In this document: positions 9,596 to 54,177 of the stretch, one piece after another | Layout: each line of letters starts with the position of its first letter | How positions within the stretch are numbered: the first letter of the stretch is position 1 | Assembly: GCF_002754315.1 (NCBI RefSeq) | Contig: NZ_PEFE01000001.1 | Coordinates: 620,001-684,000, forward strand | Direction of reading: 5' to 3' | Origin: Flavobacterium sp. 11 | GTDB lineage: Bacteria > Bacteroidota > Bacteroidia > Flavobacteriales > Flavobacteriaceae | Length of the DNA: 64,000 bases | Position numbers and translations under genes: made by a program | The notes under the pieces: model-generated | Database searches by the model: none | The model's input: only the letters and a program-made list of their open reading frames with translations | What the model was told of the DNA's origin: nothing

Positions 9596-9985
9596 TTATT
9601 TTTTTGGAGAGGCTTTCGAAAGCAAATAATCTTCATAGTTTTCAGCAAACCATTTCTTTTTGTTTTCGGCGGCGACTTCTTTTTGATCCGGATACAAAGC
9701 TGCCAATCTATCTGAAAAAATAGCAATCTGAATCGTATATTTATAAAATTCCTCTTTTGTCAATACTAAATTTGGATTTGATTTTTTATCGGAAAACTCA
9801 AAAAAAAGTCTGTCAAACTCTTTCATCGAAAAATTTAATACTTTTACTCTATTCTCGTTGTAAATAGCCTCCTTTAAAATCATATCGTTGCTTTTTACAA
9901 TTTTTTCCTGAGCATTTACGGCACAAAAAGAAAAAGTAAAAAAGAAGATAATCGAAAATGAAACTATTAATTTAATATCTTTCAT
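9596..9985 (-). CDS. Small exported protein of unknown function
   Basis: 129-residue protein with a clear Sec signal (MKDIKLIVSFSIIFFFTFSF, cleavage probably after VNAQ). The mature part is mainly helical and charged, with no cysteine and no recognised motif. It is the first gene of a two-gene unit with the putative lipoprotein downstream. I do not recognise the family. Confidence 0.65.
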   Translation of the reverse strand: MKDIKLIVSFSIIFFFTFSFCAVNAQEKIVKSNDMILKEAIYNENRVKVLNFSMKEFDRLFFEFSDKKSNPNLVLTKEEFYKYTIQIAIFSDRLAALYPDQKEVAAENKKKWFAENYEDYLLSKASPKK

Positions 9986-10036
9986 AAGCTGGTTAGGTGT
10001 TGCTTTTGTGTTTTCAAAATTACTAAAAATAAATTT

Positions 10037-10537
10037 ATGGATGTACTGCTTTTGGTTCTTGGTTTCATGTGTGTTATTTTGGGCATTTTTGGTAGTTTTT
10101 TACCCGTTTTACCCGGACCCAGCATCAGTTGGGTTGGGTTGGCATTACTTTATTTTACGAATGCTGTTCCGGCAAATTATTGGATTTTAGGAATTGCATT
10201 GTTAGTCACTGTTATCATATCGGTTTTAGATTACGTGATTCCGGCTAAAGGAACCAAGAGATTTGGCGGAAGCTCTTATGGCGTCTGGGGAACTAACCTC
10301 GGTCTGATTATTGGAATCCTTGCTCCTATCCCTTTTGGGTTCATTATCGGTCCTTTTGTTGGCGCGCTAATAGGAGAACTTATTTATGATTTTAAAGACC
10401 ACAATCGGGCTTTGAAAGCAGCCGCAGGTTCCTTTATAGGTTTTCTGGCTTCCAGCTTTATGAAATTTGTGGTTTGCGTAATGTATTTAGGATTGTTTGT
10501 ATGGACTGTTTGGCACTATAAATCGGAATTGTTCTAA
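10037..10537 (+). CDS. DUF456 family membrane protein
   Basis: 166-residue membrane protein of the DUF456 family. Four to five hydrophobic segments are seen, with the family pattern GSFLPVLPGP near residue 22, the polar turn VIPAKGTKRFGGSSYG and a glycine-rich helix GFIIGPFVGALIGEL. Function unknown. The ATG at 10037 fits the first hydrophobic helix directly. It is divergent from the exported-protein gene at 9985 and is followed by the tRNA-Asp/GIY-YIG cluster. Confidence 0.85.
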   Translation: MDVLLLVLGFMCVILGIFGSFLPVLPGPSISWVGLALLYFTNAVPANYWILGIALLVTVIISVLDYVIPAKGTKRFGGSSYGVWGTNLGLIIGILAPIPFGFIIGPFVGALIGELIYDFKDHNRALKAAAGSFIGFLASSFMKFVVCVMYLGLFVWTVWHYKSELF

Positions 10538-10570
10538 TGTACCATTAGTTTTAAGAATTCTTTTTAAAAG

Positions 10571-10602
10571 AAAAAGCTTTTCAGTTATGAAAAGCTTCTT
10601 AT
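10571..10602 (-). terminator. Terminator after tRNA fragment 1
   Basis: Hairpin with arms AAGCTTTTC and GAAAAGCTT and an A-rich left side that becomes a T-run on the minus strand. It ends the last module of the tRNA/GIY-YIG cluster. Confidence 0.7.
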
Positions 10603-10604
10603 TA

Positions 10605-10688
10605 CTGGTCTCGTTTTTAGAACGAGAGGACTCGAACCCGTCTCGTCCCAAAAGACGAGATGACAGGCATGCGTTCTATTCAACTTGA
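10605..10688 (-). pseudogene. tRNA-Asp-derived 3' fragment, module 1
   Basis: On the minus strand it carries the tRNA-Asp D-arm remnant, anticodon-arm 5' half CATGCCTGTCA and T-loop GGGTTCGAGTCC. The 3' side of the anticodon stem is replaced by a 7-bp hairpin (TCTCGTC/GACGAGA), and a second 7-bp hairpin (TCTCGTT/AACGAGA) sits where the acceptor should be. The 5' acceptor half is absent because the GIY-YIG gene takes its place. Confidence 0.75.
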
Positions 10689-10924
10689 AAACTCGTTAAT
10701 AATCTTTCTATCGAAGCAACATTAAGCTTTTTCAATCGTAATTCTTCTTTTAATACTTCTGTTTTAGTTTCAAATTCTTTGAAATACACCAAAACCCATG
10801 GACTTTTTCCAGAAGTGTATCGGCTTAAATCATTATTGTGTTCAAAAATACGCTTACCAAGATCTTGTGTAAATCCTTTGTAAAATAATCCTTGATGATT
10901 TTTTATGATGTAAACAAAACACAT
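10676..10924 (-). CDS. GIY-YIG nuclease family protein, copy 1
   Basis: 82-residue single-domain protein of the GIY-YIG (UPF0213/YhbQ-like) family. The motif appears as VYI (residues 4-6) and YKG (15-17), with Arg and His in GKRIFEHN and a Glu-rich helix after. It differs from copy 2 at only three residues by my comparison. The stop codon and the last codons lie inside the D-arm of a truncated tRNA-Asp, so the reading frame runs into tRNA-derived DNA. Whether it still cuts DNA is unknown. Confidence 0.88.
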   Translation of the reverse strand: MCFVYIIKNHQGLFYKGFTQDLGKRIFEHNNDLSRYTSGKSPWVLVYFKEFETKTEVLKEELRLKKLNVASIERLLTSFQVE

Positions 10925-10952
10925 ATCGATTGCTATTTGAATTTTACAAAAA

Positions 10953-10985
10953 CAAAAAAAGCTTTTCTATTACGAAAAGCTTTTT
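10953..10985 (-). terminator. Terminator after tRNA fragment 2
   Basis: Stem AAAAAGCTTTTC with its complement around the loop TATTAC, followed on the minus strand by a T-run. Nearly the same hairpin follows tRNA-Asp 1 at 11340-11371. Confidence 0.75.
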
Positions 10986-10989
10986 GTTA

Positions 10990-11073
10990 CTGGTCTCGTT
11001 TTTAGAACGAGAGGACTCGAACCCGTCTCGTCCCAAAAGACGAGATGACAGGCATGCGTTCTATTCAACTTGA
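10990..11073 (-). pseudogene. tRNA-Asp-derived 3' fragment, module 2
   Basis: Practically the same as the fragment at 10605-10688, displaced by 385 bp, with the same two hairpins in place of the anticodon-stem 3' half and the acceptor. It overlaps the 3' end of GIY-YIG copy 2. Confidence 0.75.
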
Positions 11074-11309
11074 AAACTCGTTAATAATCTTTCTATCGAA
11101 GCAACATTAAGCTTTTTCAATCGCAATTCTTCTTTTAATGCTTCTGTTTTTGTTTCAAATTCTTTGAAATAAACCAAAACCCACGGACTTTTTCCAGAAG
11201 TGTATCGGCTTAAATCATTATTGTGTTCTAAAATACGCTTACCAAGATCTTGTGTAAATCCTTTGTAAAATAATCCTTGATGATTTTTTATGATGTAAAC
11301 AAAATACAT
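11061..11309 (-). CDS. GIY-YIG nuclease family protein, copy 2
   Basis: 82-residue GIY-YIG protein, a tandem duplicate of the gene at 10676-10924 with a 385-bp period that includes the tRNA fragment and terminator. It has the same VYI/YKG motif spacing and the same ending inside a tRNA D-arm. Differences from copy 1 are Tyr2 for Cys, Leu for Phe after GKRI, and Ala for Val in KTEALKEEL. It sits directly downstream (minus strand) of intact tRNA-Asp 1 and its terminator. Confidence 0.88.
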   Translation of the reverse strand: MYFVYIIKNHQGLFYKGFTQDLGKRILEHNNDLSRYTSGKSPWVLVYFKEFETKTEALKEELRLKKLNVASIERLLTSFQVE

Positions 11310-11339
11310 ATCGATTGCTATTTGAATTTTACAAAAACA

Positions 11340-11371
11340 AAAAAAGCTTTTCTATTACGAAAAGCTTTTTT
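11340..11371 (-). terminator. Terminator of tRNA-Asp 1
   Basis: AAAAAAGCTTTTCG hairpin with a minus-strand T-run, 6 bp past the encoded CCA end of tRNA-Asp 1. Confidence 0.8.
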
Positions 11372-11376
11372 ATTAC

Positions 11377-11453
11377 TGGCGGTCTGGACGGGACTCGAAC
11401 CCGCGACCCCATGCGTGACAGGCATGTATTCTAACCAACTGAACTACCAAACC
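11377..11453 (-). tRNA. tRNA-Asp (GTC), copy 1, CCA encoded
   Basis: A full cloverleaf can be folded by hand. The acceptor GGTTTGG pairs with CCAGACC (one G-T), discriminator G, and the CCA is encoded. The anticodon stem CATGC/GCATG holds the loop CTGTCAC with GTC at 34-36. The T arm GCGGG-TTCGAGT-CCCGT is perfect. A terminator follows. The spacer on its 5' side is shared with the two degenerate copies upstream. Confidence 0.96.
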
Positions 11454-11490
11454 AGTATTTTAATCTATAACATTCTAATTCTTAAACACA

Positions 11491-11565
11491 GTTCTTGAAT
11501 CGAACCCGTCTCGTCCTAAAGACGAGATGACAGGCATGTATTCTAACCAACTGAACTACCAAACC
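11491..11565 (-). pseudogene. tRNA-Asp-like sequence with inserted hairpin, A
   Basis: The 5' half (acceptor GGTTTGG, D arm, anticodon-arm 5' half with GTC) is identical to the intact gene. The 3' anticodon strand, variable loop and T stem are replaced by a 7-bp hairpin TCTCGTC/GACGAGA, and the 3' acceptor strand pairs at only about five of seven positions. No cloverleaf forms. It is offset 112 bp from tRNA-Asp 1. Confidence 0.75.
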
Positions 11566-11602
11566 AGTATTTTAATCTATACCATTCTAATTCTTAAACA
11601 CA

Positions 11603-11678
11603 GTTCTTGAATCGAACCCGTCTCGTCCCAAAAGACGAGATGACAGGCATGTATTCTAACCAACTGAACTACCAAACC
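11603..11678 (-). pseudogene. tRNA-Asp-like sequence with inserted hairpin, B
   Basis: Almost identical to copy A including the 47-bp spacer, displaced by 113 bp. It has one more base in the hairpin loop (TCTCGTC-TTTTGG-GACGAGA). The intact tRNA-Asp 1, A and B form a tandem array of near-equal units. Confidence 0.75.
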
Positions 11679-11694
11679 AGCTTCATTTTAAATC

Positions 11695-11726
11695 AAAAAA
11701 GCTATCCACAAAAGTGGAAAGCTTTT
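11695..11726 (-). terminator. Terminator-like hairpin
   Basis: Minus strand AAAAGCTTTCCAC-TTTT-GTGGATAGCTTTTTT forms a 13-bp stem with one mismatch and a T-run. It lies between the degenerate array and the region 11727-11802. Confidence 0.7.
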
Positions 11727-11802
11727 CATTGGTCTAACTACTAAACCCGCTACGAGTTACAAATTCGTAGCAAACAACACAACTAACTTTAGATACTTTA
11801 TA
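11727..11802. other. Degenerate hairpin segment, possible tRNA remnant
   Basis: Contains GGTCT, AACTAC and CCC blocks spaced as in the flanking tRNA remnants, followed by a 7-bp hairpin GCTACGA/TCGTAGC (11749-11755 with 11765-11771). It may be a further, strongly eroded tRNA-like unit; the evidence is weak. Confidence 0.35.
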
Positions 11803-11840
11803 GGGGCAAAAAAGCCTTTCTGTTACGAAAGGCTTTCCCC
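11803..11840 (-). terminator. Terminator of tRNA-Asp 2
   Basis: Perfect 10-bp stem AAAGCCTTTC/GAAAGGCTTT (11811-11820 with 11827-11836), extended by GGGG/CCCC outside, with a T-run on the minus strand directly after tRNA-Asp 2. Confidence 0.85.
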
Positions 11841-11847
11841 AATATTG

Positions 11848-11921
11848 CGGTCTGGACGGGACTCGAACCCGCGACCCCATGCGTGACAGGCATGTATTCT
11901 AACCAACTGAACTACCAAACC
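11848..11921 (-). tRNA. tRNA-Asp (GTC), copy 2
   Basis: 74-nt cloverleaf with the same sequence as copy 1 through the discriminator G, but followed by CAA, so CCA is not encoded here. Acceptor, D, anticodon (GTC) and T arms all pair. It has its own consensus promoter at 11940-11969 and a strong terminator at 11803-11840, so it is likely the main expressed copy. Confidence 0.96.
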
Positions 11922-11939
11922 TCTGCGTTATTGCGGTGG

Positions 11940-11969
11940 CAAAGATACAATAGATTTCCGTTTACACAA
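11940..11969 (-). promoter_or_regulatory. Bacteroidota-type promoter of tRNA-Asp 2
   Basis: Minus strand shows TTG (11967-11969), 19 bases, then TATCTTTG (11940-11947), an exact match to the TTG-N17-23-TAnnTTTG consensus known for Flavobacterium and Bacteroides. The -7 box ends 19 bp before the tRNA 5' end. Confidence 0.85.
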
Positions 11970-12007
11970 GCGTTTTTTGAAAAAATAATTGATAAATTTT
12001 AACCTTA

Positions 12008-12934
12008 TTATCCAAAGTTTTGTTTTTCAACCAAGTATGTCATTAAAATTTTTTCAAAACTTTCTCCAACACTTACCGGAATGTACTTTATTCGGTTTTG
12101 TGAGCAGGTCAAAGCGAGTTTCTTAAAGTAACTTTCTGTCTGTTTTTCGTATTCTTCTTTGACATTATCCGCAAAAACTGCTACTTCTTCTCCTGTTTCT
12201 ACATCAATAAACTTCCTTGGAGCATTATCAAAGTCAAAATTTAACTCTGTTTTGTTATCGACAACGTGAAACAAGACCACTTTATGCTTGTTGTGTTTCA
12301 AATGCTGCAAGGCATTAAACAGCGCTTCCTCATTTCCGGACTGAAACATATCCGTAAACAAGACAATCATCGAACGACGGTGAATCTTCTCGGCTATTTG
12401 ATGTAAAAATGTAATTGTATCAGTACTTTTTTTAGTCGCAGGTTTCTCTAAAAGCCCTTCAAGTGTATTTAAGATCATTCTATGATGGCGATCACTGCCT
12501 TTTTCAGGAGCATAGTACTCATATGTATCCGAAAACACACTTAGTCCCACAGCATCGCGTTGCTTCTTTAAAAGATTCATTAAAACCGCCGAGGCCAAAA
12601 CAGAAAAGCCAATCTTATTCTCAAAAAATTGCTGACCGCCTTTTAGTTTCGGATAATGCATTGAAGAGGAATTATCGATAATAAGATGACACCGCAAATT
12701 AGTTTCTTCCTCAAATCGTTTGGTGTATAAACGATCCGTTTTGGCAAACAATTTCCAATCAATGTGCTTGGTACTTTCGCCAACATTATAGACTTTATGC
12801 TCAGCAAATTCTGCCGAAAATCCATGAAACGGACTTTTATGCATTCCTGAAATAAAACCTTCCACAACCTGATTGGCCAGCAATTCAAGATGCTGAAAAC
12901 TGGAAATTTTCTCTATTTGCGATTCGATTTTCAT
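12008..12934 (-). CDS. DUF58 domain protein (MoxR-associated vWA-like)
   Basis: 308-residue soluble protein of the DUF58 family. The conserved DUF58 core appears as VGESTKHIDWKLFAKTDRLY, followed by a vWA-like MIDAS segment LIIDNSSSMHY (DxSxS) and a second acidic strand VLFTDMFQSG. Family members usually work beside a MoxR AAA ATPase in envelope or aerotolerance functions; no moxR gene is next to it in this window. It reads on the minus strand, divergently placed beyond the tRNA promoter. Confidence 0.88.
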   Translation of the reverse strand: MKIESQIEKISSFQHLELLANQVVEGFISGMHKSPFHGFSAEFAEHKVYNVGESTKHIDWKLFAKTDRLYTKRFEEETNLRCHLIIDNSSSMHYPKLKGGQQFFENKIGFSVLASAVLMNLLKKQRDAVGLSVFSDTYEYYAPEKGSDRHHRMILNTLEGLLEKPATKKSTDTITFLHQIAEKIHRRSMIVLFTDMFQSGNEEALFNALQHLKHNKHKVVLFHVVDNKTELNFDFDNAPRKFIDVETGEEVAVFADNVKEEYEKQTESYFKKLALTCSQNRIKYIPVSVGESFEKILMTYLVEKQNFG

Positions 12935-49444: not shown

Positions 49445-49547
49445 AATGCCCTAGCCCTGATAGTCCCGAAGTATCGGGAGACATCCTTTTCCTTCCGCCT
49501 TTTCGGCGGATATAAAGATTGTAACGGATAGCAGGAAAAAGCTTCTG
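49445..49547 (+). repeat. Dispersed structured repeat, copy 3
   Basis: Shows AATGCCCTAGCCCTGAT, then an extra TCCCGA-AGTA-TCGGGA hairpin, CATCC, a CCGCC/GGCGG hairpin, and the tail GGATAGCAGGAAAAAGCTTC. Block order matches copies at 8983 and 13643. Confidence 0.75.
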
Positions 49548-51957: not shown

Positions 51958-54177
51958 TTACAAATTAAAATTCACACCCAAAACGATGTTTCTTCCAATG
52001 TTTGGAATACCATCCGTTTTTAGACGGGAAAGATGCGCAATGTATCTTTTATCAAATAAATTATTCCCGTTGATATTGACGTCAAAAGCAGTTTTACCCA
52101 GTTTTACAGTTCCGCCAAAACCTAAATTCACTAAGTTATACCCATTCGATTCTGTTTCAAATCCGCTTACATTTTTTTGATTGAAGGTACTGGAAACATT
52201 CAAAGTTGCAAAACCATCTTCCAACCAGTTTTTGATTTTGAATTCGGTTCTAATGGTATTGTTCCAATTGTTAGCAGGGATTAACGGCAAGTAATCTCTC
52301 CCGACGCTTCGGGATTGTTTCTCGCCAGTTACGGTTTCAAAACTCGTTTCAAAATGCAACCAATCCAATGGATGTGGGTGAAAATGCAGTCCGACTTCGC
52401 CTCCATATAATTTGGCGTTATTCTGAATATAATCGAAAACAGCATTCTCATCAATCACTTCTCCTGTTGGCGAAGTGTAGATATAATTGTTGATGTGATT
52501 GTAAAATCCGTTCACAAAAAACTCAAAATGATCTGTTTTGTATTCTAAATTTAAATCTGTCTGTACGTTTTGCTCGGTTTCTAAATCGCTGTTTCCTACT
52601 TCATAGCGATTTGTTCCTTCATGCACTCCATTAGAGGTTAATTCCGCAAGATTTGGCGCTCTAAATCCAGAAGCTACGTTCAAACGCAACGTTACATCAT
52701 CGGCAAGATTGGTTTTGTAACCCAACGATGCATTAAAACTGTCGTATGATTTATCGATTGCTTCAAAAGAACCTTCCTCACCTGCAATTCCTTGCGCTTC
52801 TGTAGTGATATTTCTATTATCGAAACGCAATCCGGCTTGCAACACATTAGAATTCCACTCATAATTTGCCGTTCCAAAAACACCAAAATCATTCGTAACA
52901 GCATCCGGAATTAGATATTCTTCTCCTGAATTTGTATTGGTTTGATACATTCCCTGAACGCCCACAATGGTTTCTATTTTTCCCATTTTTGGTAAATGGT
53001 ATTTTGCATTGTAATTGAAAGTCTTCAATTTCATGTGTAAAACCGCCACATTACTATCTTCAAACTCACTTCGATCATTGGCAACATAACCCAAATCAAC
53101 ATCTAGTTTTGATTTTTCGAAAAAGAAAACATTGTTTAAACTCAATAAATGATTGAAAACGCCTTGTTTTGGAAATCCAGTTTTCTTGCTCGTCGATTGG
53201 TCTGCTATGCCATCTTCCGGAATTCCTAAATCCAATTCATTGTAATTGTAACGCAATACACTTGAAAATTTAGCATTGCTGTAGCCAATTCCTGTTTTGA
53301 AATCGGTTTCATTGTAACGGGTATTTGTCACTCGGTCACCATCGGCAATTTTATAATCAGAATGTGTGTTGTAACTTCCACGAGCCATGAATTTCCAATT
53401 ATCTGTAGATGTTTTCAAACCCAAAGAAGAACTGCTTCCGGCGGTATTCGAGAAATATTTTTGACTGAAGTTCGCTTTAAATGTATTCGCATCAGCAAAT
53501 TTTTCGGGGTTAAAATACAAAACACCACCCAAAGCATCGGAGCCGTACAACAACGAAGCCGGTCCTTTGATAACCTCAACGCTTTCTATTCCTGAGTCGT
53601 TCAATCCCAAACCGTGTTCGTCACCAAACTGTTGATTTTCTATTCGAACACCTTGAGAATACACCAAAACACGATTGCCGCTCAAACCACGAATCACCGG
53701 TTTCCCGATAGATGTTCCGGTAGAAACCTGAGAAACTCCGGGAATAGTCGCCAATCCTTCAATCAAAGTGGCGGTTCCTTTTCGTTGCAAATTTTTGATG
53801 CTTTCGTGCTCCACTTTCATCACGTTTTGTGATTGTATTTTATTGAAAGCGGTAGAAACGATTACTTCATCCATTTCGAAAATTGCTTCTTCAAGAATAA
53901 CATCAAGTGAGTTTTCTTTTTGAAGACTGTTTATGGTTTTATTTTGGGTTGCAAATCCTACGAACGTAAAGCTGATTTTTAAGTTTCTATTTGGAAGATT
54001 GGAAAGTGTGTATTTTCCGTTTTCATCTGTAGTGGTTCCTTTATGCAATTCTGATGCATAGACTGAAACGCCTTTTAGGGGTTGGTTTTTTAAATCAGTT
54101 ACGGTTCCCGAAAGGGTATTTTGTGCTTGAAGCATCGCCGAAAACCCCAAAATTAGGGCTATGATAAATTTTTTCAT
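51958..54177 (-). CDS. TonB-dependent outer-membrane receptor
   Basis: 739-residue receptor. A signal peptide (about 1-18) is followed by a CarboxypepD_reg-like domain (about 20-105, GTVTDLKNQPLKGVSVYA), a plug domain (about 115-225, with GLSGNRVLVYSQGVRIENQQ and ASLLYGSDALGGV) and a 22-strand barrel ending GRNIVLGVNFNL. The form resembles receptors for metals or small siderophores; the substrate is not known. It lies downstream of a His/Cys-rich small exported protein on the same strand, which points to metal acquisition or handling; this is inference. Confidence 0.93.
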   Translation of the reverse strand: MKKFIIALILGFSAMLQAQNTLSGTVTDLKNQPLKGVSVYASELHKGTTTDENGKYTLSNLPNRNLKISFTFVGFATQNKTINSLQKENSLDVILEEAIFEMDEVIVSTAFNKIQSQNVMKVEHESIKNLQRKGTATLIEGLATIPGVSQVSTGTSIGKPVIRGLSGNRVLVYSQGVRIENQQFGDEHGLGLNDSGIESVEVIKGPASLLYGSDALGGVLYFNPEKFADANTFKANFSQKYFSNTAGSSSSLGLKTSTDNWKFMARGSYNTHSDYKIADGDRVTNTRYNETDFKTGIGYSNAKFSSVLRYNYNELDLGIPEDGIADQSTSKKTGFPKQGVFNHLLSLNNVFFFEKSKLDVDLGYVANDRSEFEDSNVAVLHMKLKTFNYNAKYHLPKMGKIETIVGVQGMYQTNTNSGEEYLIPDAVTNDFGVFGTANYEWNSNVLQAGLRFDNRNITTEAQGIAGEEGSFEAIDKSYDSFNASLGYKTNLADDVTLRLNVASGFRAPNLAELTSNGVHEGTNRYEVGNSDLETEQNVQTDLNLEYKTDHFEFFVNGFYNHINNYIYTSPTGEVIDENAVFDYIQNNAKLYGGEVGLHFHPHPLDWLHFETSFETVTGEKQSRSVGRDYLPLIPANNWNNTIRTEFKIKNWLEDGFATLNVSSTFNQKNVSGFETESNGYNLVNLGFGGTVKLGKTAFDVNINGNNLFDKRYIAHLSRLKTDGIPNIGRNIVLGVNFNL

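Follow-up and report, generated by a model that had tools for sequence, protein, structure and literature searches.

The window analyzed here, meaning the whole stretch of DNA under study, comprises 64,000 nt at positions 620,001 to 684,000 of contig NZ_PEFE01000001.1, from the single-contig genome of Flavobacterium sp. 11. On its minus strand lie two 385–base pair (bp) units, each composed of a GIY-YIG nuclease gene and a partial copy (psi) of an adjoining intact tRNA-Asp gene. The units repeat with a period of 385 nt and are 96% identical across 300 nt. ARAGORN detected two tRNAs in the window, both tRNA-Asp(gtc). Read along the minus strand, the second of them is followed by a terminator-like hairpin, a GIY-YIG gene, a psi tail, a terminator, and the second module (Table 1). 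A preliminary description of the region had reported two 385-bp modules made of a GIY-YIG gene, a tRNA-Asp 3′ part, and a terminator, with the gene frames ending inside a tRNA-Asp–like D-arm and an intact tRNA-Asp directly upstream; the PF01541 matches, the 385-nt repeat, the location of both stop codons, and the ARAGORN prediction bear this out. The same description called the tails truncated tRNAs. They are indeed partial copies but are not simply truncated: two perfect hairpins interrupt each of them. Past the D-arm, the anticodon triplet is followed by the hairpin TCTCGTC...GACGAGA, which stands directly after the anticodon loop and replaces the 3′ anticodon strand; then come the start of the T-arm, the second hairpin, located in the acceptor region, and CCAG. 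No recombinase gene was found in the units, and the single recognized gene in each encodes the GIY-YIG protein.

Upstream of the units are two psi tRNA-Asp copies that lack a GIY-YIG gene, stand 112 nt apart, and carry the first hairpin. Such 112-bp copies number one to three in relatives. This hairpin together with the T-arm start has four copies in the genome, every one at the window locus. Still farther upstream is a tRNA-like stretch with the layout AGTTGTGTTGTTT-hairpin-GGTTTAGTAGTTAGACCAATG, whose hairpin varies by species and which is kept 3′ of tRNA-Asp in Flavobacterium without a GIY-YIG gene. It is present in six relatives with no GIY-YIG gene there (L124, L130 to L132, L150, and L152) and also in L203, L205 to L207, and L209, and may encode a small RNA or be what remains of an old unit. 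A scan of positions 9800 to 12200 against Rfam listed no group I intron up to an E value of 1, and the neighboring tRNA is uninterrupted; the non-tRNA matches in this region (HPnc0260, U4, and rimP) were far below gathering scores and were dismissed.

Table 1. Features of the tRNA-Asp array (coordinates in the window).
Feature	Position	Strand	Evidence and remarks
tRNA-Asp(gtc) no. 1	11847..11921	−	ARAGORN; Rfam 66.4 bits; same two neighbor genes in relatives
Conserved tRNA-like stretch with variable hairpin	11727..11784	−	Target of GIY-YIG unit in F. amnicola
GIY-less psi tRNA-Asp copy A (5′ part, hairpin, T-arm start)	11609..11678	−	Hairpin 11614-11641
GIY-less psi tRNA-Asp copy B	11497..11565	−	Hairpin 11502-11528; 112 nt from copy A
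Intact tRNA-Asp(gtc) no. 2	11377..11453	−	Directly upstream of first unit; ARAGORN, Rfam
Terminator-like hairpin with T run	11340..11371	−	Between tRNA no. 2 and GIY-YIG gene 1; inverted repeat
GIY-YIG gene 1, 82 aa	11061..11309	−	Stop codon in D-arm of psi copy; PF01541 E 2.2e-14
Psi tRNA-Asp 3′ part, unit 1	10990..11073	−	Hairpins 11019-11046 and 10994-11012
Terminator-like hairpin	10956..10985	−	Between units 1 and 2; inverted repeat
GIY-YIG gene 2, 82 aa	10676..10924	−	PF01541 E 1.5e-13
Psi tRNA-Asp 3′ part, unit 2	10605..10688	−	Hairpins 10634-10661 and 10609-10627
Last terminator-like hairpin	10571..10600	−	Array end; repeat analysis

The arrangement recurs elsewhere in the same genome. 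PF01541 matched 13 genes, of which three lie in long frames (456 to 730 aa), one is a small gene without a tRNA, and nine belong to units: two each at tRNA-Asp (in the window), tRNA-Val(tac), and tRNA-Phe(gaa), one at tRNA-Ala(ggc), and two of Val type that stand without a neighboring intact tRNA (orphans). Each tRNA-linked tail copies the 3′ part of its own neighboring tRNA. In the Val and Ala tails, a hairpin takes the place of the anticodon arm; the Phe tails have two hairpins, one within the T-loop and one within the loop of the terminator. The genome encodes 51 tRNAs of 30 kinds in 3.76 Mb; tRNA-Ala(ggc) is single-copy, and tRNA-Val, tRNA-Phe, and tRNA-Asp have two copies each. Apart from true tandem tRNAs, copies of the last 20 nt of each tRNA were found in the fetched downstream stretches in the Val and Ala tails only; the search misses broken ends (the Phe and Asp tails escaped it), so other broken copies are possible.

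Many small GIY-YIG genes are similarly placed beside tRNAs among 40 relatives. Across the Bacteroidia loci examined, 69 of 185 small GIY-YIG genes had a same-strand tRNA within 130 nt upstream, compared to 0 of 185 with a tRNA on the opposite strand. This set (loci L014 to L019, L052 to L121, L153 to L203, and L205 to L207, with frames longer than 250 aa excluded and one duplicate unit removed) is biased, as 20 of its regions were picked by eye and are mostly arrays. A fairer sample came from matches to profile A1, which was itself built from tRNA-linked proteins and reached an E value of 1e-8 or better in 262 of 395 Bacteroidia genomes. Among the best 30 of these class-wide loci, taken one per genome with one match judged per locus, a same-strand tRNA lay at most 200 nt upstream in 25 and downstream in 1; of the others, L155 and L174 had a psi tail only and L171 and L178 neither tRNA nor psi. 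With 51 tRNAs in 3.76 Mb, an upstream tRNA this close is expected by chance at ~0.1% of loci, and chance is therefore excluded.

The first units of these loci, 68 distinct ones, stand at tRNA-Val (21), Ala (9), Met (8), Asp (7), Pro (6), Asn (4), Arg (4, two anticodons), Phe (3), Leu (2), and His, Ser, Lys, and Thr (1 each); the rest of the 185 genes are later array members, genes away from tRNAs (class B), and orphans. Thirteen anticodon kinds are clear, and a 14th (Ser, L179) is doubtful, its psi copies resembling tRNA-Pro. For 55 of the 68 tails, none of 56 tRNA sequences matched better than the resident tRNA. Tail and resident tRNA are closely alike, and tRNAs are too conserved to reveal a foreign origin of an inserted end. 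In L188 (Bacteroidia genome G147), two units precede tRNA-Pro(ggg), and their psi copies retain the anticodon arm, with hairpins in the D-arm and T-loop.

Some arrays are longer than that in the window. Five units with a spacing of 350 stand at a tRNA-Pro among the 40 relatives, and ten with a spacing of 457 at a tRNA-Met in G181, the longest array; six Pro-type units, one with stops, stand in a row with no intact tRNA within the 4.8 kb fetched. The preliminary description read the tandem as repeated insertion. Since array spacing is constant and the units are near-identical, tandem amplification is likelier. Its broader proposal, that a GIY-YIG element occupies tRNA genes and leaves the intact copy in place, is strengthened by the 13 clear anticodon kinds, by empty sites, and by copy-number differences (see below). 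Draft assemblies may undercount units because contigs end inside or beside them, as in L204, L159, L175, and L198.

Hairpins are a regular feature of the psi tails. Among the 50 tails whose tRNA 3′ end was clear, 46 showed a new, perfect stem of at least 5 bp, 42 one of at least 6 bp, and 29 one of at least 7 bp; the corresponding shares for base-shuffled tails were 0.36, 0.10, and 0.025. The remaining 18 of 68 tails, including all six window-type Asp tails, had more than three mismatches in 14 nt of the 3′ end and were not scored, and for L084, L113, L160, and L201 a stem other than the insert was scored. Common stem types are TCCCGA, TTCCGAT, TCCCGC, and TCCGYC. Stems of the form TCCG[CT] occurred in 6 of 6 scored Met tails versus 1 of 35 other tails; L084, where the script picked a stem of the open reading frame (ORF) and the tail reads TCCGCC, was excluded from this count by hand, and two further TCCGCC tails fall outside it (L055, unscored for stems, and L183, not a first unit). 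The hairpin lies in the anticodon arm in Val, Ala, Arg, Lys, and most Pro tails, directly after the anticodon loop in Met and window-type Asp tails, in the T-loop in Phe, some Asn, Thr, and one Leu tail, and in the acceptor strand in two Pro tails (L192 and L199). In 23 anticodon-arm tails, 158 of 161 outer pair cells were standard, with both-side changes at pairs 2, 3, 6, and 7; the test covered 23 of 28 loci (three without a plain T-loop were left out, and L098 and L159 were excluded by hand), and its share leans high because the hairpin length was chosen per row for best pairing. Three psi Val tails still score as tRNA (30.7 bits, positions 5 to 66). The idea that the hairpin marks an insertion junction was dropped, many tails having tRNA sequence on both of its sides.

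Ten residues are invariant across 16 class A proteins, among them Y4, Y15, G17, R25, H29, and E61; we take the Y, Y, R, and E to be the GIY-YIG active site. The only NCBIfam model found is one for a group I intron endonuclease, which 13 of the 16 proteins match, below the cut-off in the member shown in full. A single-sequence AlphaFold model had a mean predicted local distance difference test score of 68 and supports no claim here. In a tree of 91 small GIY-YIG proteins, the Met, Phe, Ala, Asp, and Asn types form one clade each. In a class-wide tree of 78 tRNA-linked proteins (one per locus), Met proteins form a single clade of 9 (support 100/99), a clade of 23 (96/90) unites 21 of 23 Val proteins with 2 Arg proteins, 6 of 8 Asp proteins group together, and another group (98/92) is made up of 2 of 3 Phe and 4 of 5 Asn proteins along with the Thr protein and one Arg protein, while Ala, Leu, and Arg(tct) are scattered. 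The tRNA labels require 26 changes on this tree versus a mean of 51.8 after shuffling; its deep forks are unsure because the alignment has only 83 to 95 columns. Protein lineages largely track tRNA identity. Median ratios of nonsynonymous to synonymous substitution rates were 0.16 for Asp, 0.09 for Val, 0.09 for Met, 0.20 for Ala, and 0.14 for Pro, with single pairs up to 0.73 (usable pairs numbered 54 of 66 for Val and 9 of 36 for Pro, and synonymous divergence was near saturation for Val, Met, and Ala). These values indicate that the GIY-YIG genes evolve under purifying selection.

Following a suggestion in the preliminary description, the locus was compared in relatives, and zero to three GIY-YIG copies were found there. 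Its neighbor genes presumably encode DUF58-like and DUF456-like proteins. The DUF456-like protein occurs in 45 of 61 genomes of the genus; of 30 such loci fetched (own included), seven keep tRNA-Asp, and a GIY-YIG gene is present solely at the own locus. The nearest relative, G007, whose DUF58-like protein is 95% identical, has one tRNA-Asp and no GIY-YIG gene. A protein search revealed one GIY-YIG copy at the Asp locus in F. limicola and in F. psychrolimnae and three in F. yafengii, compared to two in the window; F. petrolei has three, two of them broken, and F. sinopsychrotolerans has at least two, which lie at a contig end. F. amnicola has a distant GIY-YIG gene behind the psi-like stretch downstream of tRNA-Asp; the tail of this gene is a copy of that stretch plus a hairpin. 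Since several relatives have two tRNA-Asp genes there, gain and loss are inseparable at this locus. At tRNA-Phe, no unit was found within the 420 nt viewed in any of the five relatives read out of six searched, and at tRNA-Val there was none in G010 and G060. The tRNA-Val site of G007 holds an integrase gene instead of a unit, and in G044 a unit start lies at a contig end. G010 carries a unit at one tRNA-Val copy (L078) and none at the other (L226), a filled and empty pair within one genome. Overall, sequence comparison shows that the unit is flanked by two copies of one tRNA, one intact and one spoiled, and that relatives differ in its number.

Not all small GIY-YIG genes are tied to tRNAs. 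The preliminary description had said that genes away from tRNAs with unrelated 3′ ends would speak against it, and genes away from tRNAs do occur. A separate group of this kind is class B, of which 49 of 50 rows stand with the Asp clade beyond a branch with support 92/93 in the 91-protein tree, the 50th, L085, being Val-type; others are the orphan Val units, which retain the psi tail and seem displaced. Direct repeats between the flanks were present in 24 of 46 class B loci. Inverted repeats of at least 9 bp occurred on both sides in 12 of 46, compared to 1 of 50 control windows, and on either side in 30 of 46, compared to 17 of 50. Class B loci (L018, L057, L074, L087, and others) are often flanked by longer dispersed palindromes, for example, GTCATTGCGAGGAACGAAGCAATC. 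By analogy, they look like a GIY-YIG counterpart of the systems formed by repetitive extragenic palindromes (REPs) and their transposases (RAYTs). The hairpin of the Phe and Ala tails, TCCCGA-N3-8-TCGGGA, is found at 55 places in the genome versus 1 for the reversed control, with 5 of the 55 in tRNA units. It occurs in the window at 49464-49479 and 52299-52314, one of these lying within a 739-aa frame (51958-54177).

The orphan Val-type units L015, L085, and L109 keep their psi tail without an adjoining tRNA; ARAGORN detected no tRNA or tmRNA at the orphan Val loci L015, L002, L085, and L109. L109 begins with the last 13 nt of tRNA-Val, and for this reason, the idea that orphans are ectopic jumps was given up in favor of displacement by islands. 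A serine recombinase gene (Pfam Resolvase and Recombinase) follows the last Val tail in this genome (L014:2192-3724), and a phage-type integrase gene follows tRNA-Val in G007 (L230). Islands seem to push units away from their tRNA. As for plasmids as a vehicle, the two records of the plasmid collection that match the Val protein are both from Neisseria and ~2.17 Mb, thus chromosome-sized, and this candidate was rejected.

A protein search in named genomes yielded 21 loci, six from Flavobacterium and 15 from elsewhere. In 6 of the 15, the layout is mirrored, with a psi 5′ part and its hairpin, then the GIY-YIG gene, and then the intact tRNA. These are a Bacteroidia metagenome-assembled genome (L210), Omnitrophota (L211), and Ignavibacteriaceae (L212), and the candidate phyla Moranbacteria (L215), Roizmanbacteria (L216), and Vogelbacteria (L218). 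In L215 and L218, the same hairpin is repeated in a psi 3′ copy after the intact tRNA. Four of the 15 (L208, L213, L214, and L219) have the tRNA upstream and five have none. Among 30 loci fetched from the genomes behind eight of the 21 loci, a same-strand tRNA lay within 200 nt downstream in 11 (five of them seed loci again: L273, L274, L277, L280, and L297), upstream only in 4, and at neither side in 15. In the 11 loci, 2 to 63 nt separate the stop codon from the nearest tRNA. Seven loci have at least 16 nt of the tRNA 5′ part upstream of the GIY-YIG gene. These eight genomes from other phyla (G468 to G475, loci L272 to L301), of ~0.6 to 3.9 Mb, have 2 to 12 profile A1 matches each, a heavy load in small genomes such as G472 (0.8 Mb, 12 matches) and G475 (0.9 Mb, 11 matches).

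The explanation we favor, while giving it about an even chance of being right, is that the unit homes into tRNA genes as a minimal selfish element whose parts are a single GIY-YIG nuclease gene and an incomplete copy of the tRNA it targets. By analogy with homing endonucleases, the nuclease would act in a chromosome that lacks the unit and cut the tRNA gene there, possibly in cruciform shape; repair templated by an occupied chromosome would then copy the unit in, the tRNA sequences flanking the nuclease gene serving as homology arms. With the tRNA part that the unit brings along, an intact tRNA would be rebuilt on one side, and a displaced copy marked by the hairpin would be left on the other, where the hairpin may protect it from recutting. 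Arrays could then grow by recombination between the 300- to 460-bp repeats, as phage SegB does at tRNA-Tyr. The wider view that several phyla carry so far unnamed home-and-rescue elements, with a GIY-YIG nuclease, tRNA-specialized lineages, a displaced part marked by REP-like palindromes, and 3′ and 5′ forms, we put forward tentatively, at somewhat less than an even chance.

Several observations weigh against homing. Its cleavage, transfer, and biased inheritance steps are drawn by analogy, and the nuclease should be able to cut the intact tRNA of its own genome just as readily as an empty one. In empty relatives, the right flanks of the Val and Phe arrays match other places in the genome or nothing; homing is weakened by this lack of synteny, because of which these sites show that the unit is absent but not where exactly it ends. 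The Asp locus is compatible with a loss in G007 just as well as with a gain in other genomes, and long vertical descent could also have produced the tRNA-specific clades. The hairpin of many tails lies within the psi copy rather than at the junction with the gene, and three tRNA-linked genes (L083, L170, and L176) have no recognizable tail. GIY-YIG (PF01541) is the only domain found in the 82-aa window protein, which leaves it with no known recognition domain, although the GIY-YIG domain itself, or structure, may provide recognition. Its nearest solved structures by sequence profile are 1zg2 and 1ywl (UPF0213), followed by SLX1 chains, and neither UPF0213 nor SLX1 proteins are homing enzymes to our knowledge. 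A vehicle is also missing, as 0 of 50,697 phage records match the Val protein.

One of these difficulties would be eased if the protein were a structure-specific enzyme that mobilizes REP-like hairpins, the psi hairpin being the mobile or recognized part and tRNA genes, as cloverleaf DNA, one target class; we consider this unlikely, though far from negligible. Such an enzyme would see cloverleaf or hairpin DNA, which lessens the problem of recognition by a small protein, and SLX1 is among the nearest solved relatives of the window protein. The wide dispersal of the TCCCGA palindrome, the direct and both-side inverted repeats around class B genes, and the location of some hairpins in T-loops and of one in a terminator loop are all consistent with it. 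The Asp hairpin, however, is undispersed, protein clades track tRNA identity, and some tRNA-linked genes lack a tail. We find it improbable that the units are addictive pairs of a tRNA-nuclease toxin and an RNA antidote, in which the GIY-YIG protein attacks the cognate tRNA and a transcribed psi-tRNA acts as a neutralizing decoy. Characterized GIY-YIG enzymes cut DNA, many psi copies lack the D-arm and most the 5′ acceptor strand, the hairpin breaks the T-loop rather than the anticodon arm in Phe, some Asn, and Thr tails, and genes without tails and tails without genes both occur. In its favor are stems preserved through paired changes, tRNA-specific clades, purifying selection, and the three psi Val tails that score as tRNA. 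We also rated this explanation higher because a 2006 survey of the GIY-YIG superfamily notes that an SLX1-type GIY-YIG domain is fused with a tRNA methyltransferase of the TrmH kind and proposes a function in RNA metabolism (PMC1564403); in the text available to us, the survey uses the word “tRNA” three times, in connection with this fusion and in references.

That the psi copies are attachment-site debris, left at tRNA 3′ ends by tyrosine or serine recombinase islands with the GIY-YIG gene as a passenger, is in our judgment quite improbable. Direct copies of tRNA 3′ ends are the mark of islands that use these ends, and the recombinase gene after the last Val tail here and the integrase gene after tRNA-Val in G007 point the same way. 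The units themselves, however, encode no recombinase, have hairpins inside the copy, stand at many tRNAs with GIY-YIG clades of their own, and exist in a mirrored 5′ form, and the orphan L109 starts with the tRNA-Val end as if pushed off by an island. It is very improbable, in our view, that the units stem from faulty assembly or from a tRNA region passively duplicated in tandem with no element involved. Contigs do end in or beside units at four loci, but the window belongs to a single-contig genome, the locus carries one to three copies in the separate assemblies of F. yafengii, F. limicola, F. psychrolimnae, and F. petrolei, and the GIY-YIG gene is foreign to the tRNA repeat and under selection.

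Transfer RNA genes are among the best conserved genomic targets, and a nuclease living off them must spare its host. The units look like a natural solution to this problem, found at many tRNAs and in several phyla: The rescue part is carried along, and the other copy is spoiled. Such units would explain many of the small GIY-YIG genes of Bacteroidota and candidate-phyla bacteria, psi-tRNA fragments, and assembly breaks at tRNA loci, and perhaps part of the dispersed palindromes in these genomes. If the palindrome is the nuclease substrate, homing elements and REP palindromes would be joined in one GIY-YIG–driven mobility. The units would also be short, testable systems in which to study bacterial homing, and natural counterparts of engineered cleave-and-rescue drives.

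The closest known systems each share part of these features. RAYTs are Y1 tyrosine transposases. The units are like REP/RAYT systems in that dispersed short palindromes are tied to a small nuclease gene; they differ in that the gene is of GIY-YIG type, with no Y1 transposase, and tRNA copies are present. The TCCCGA hairpin is dispersed as REPs are, unlike the Asp hairpin, whose four places are all at the window locus. SLX1 chains, at 183 to 324 residues, are longer than the 82-aa window protein, and we know of no report of UPF0213 or SLX1 proteins at tRNA genes. Among the papers listed by searches of the open-access literature, none dealt with GIY-YIG genes beside bacterial tRNA genes with broken tRNA copies (subscription journals and preprints lay outside these searches), which is no proof of novelty.

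Nearer in position is SegB of T-even phages, a free-standing GIY-YIG homing endonuclease at tRNA genes that drives tandem amplification of a segment with tRNA-Tyr and segB itself (PMC13096335, PMC2988022). Here, too, a GIY-YIG gene adjoins tRNA genes, and the arrays resemble the SegB amplification at tRNA-Tyr; SegB differs in being phage-borne and in standing in a multi-tRNA region, and the available passages on it mention no hairpin-broken neighboring tRNA copy. Nearest in architecture are, as far as the accessible text describes them, the mobile endonuclease ORFs of fungal mitochondria, which form gene hybrids at atp6, atp9, cox2, and nad3 of Glomus sp. and, as cited in the same paper, at atp6 of Allomyces (PMC3630166). 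Such an ORF carries a replacement 3′ gene part, which keeps the host gene whole, and the native 3′ part is displaced downstream; in the atp9 case, the endonuclease is of GIY-YIG type (PMC3630166). The fungal elements hit mitochondrial protein genes and mostly encode LAGLIDADG proteins, whereas the units described here have bacterial tRNA targets, an 82-aa protein, a hairpin-marked copy, arrays, and a mirrored 5′ form. In both, judging here by the 68 distinct first units, an endonuclease ORF stands between an intact gene and a displaced copy of its end.

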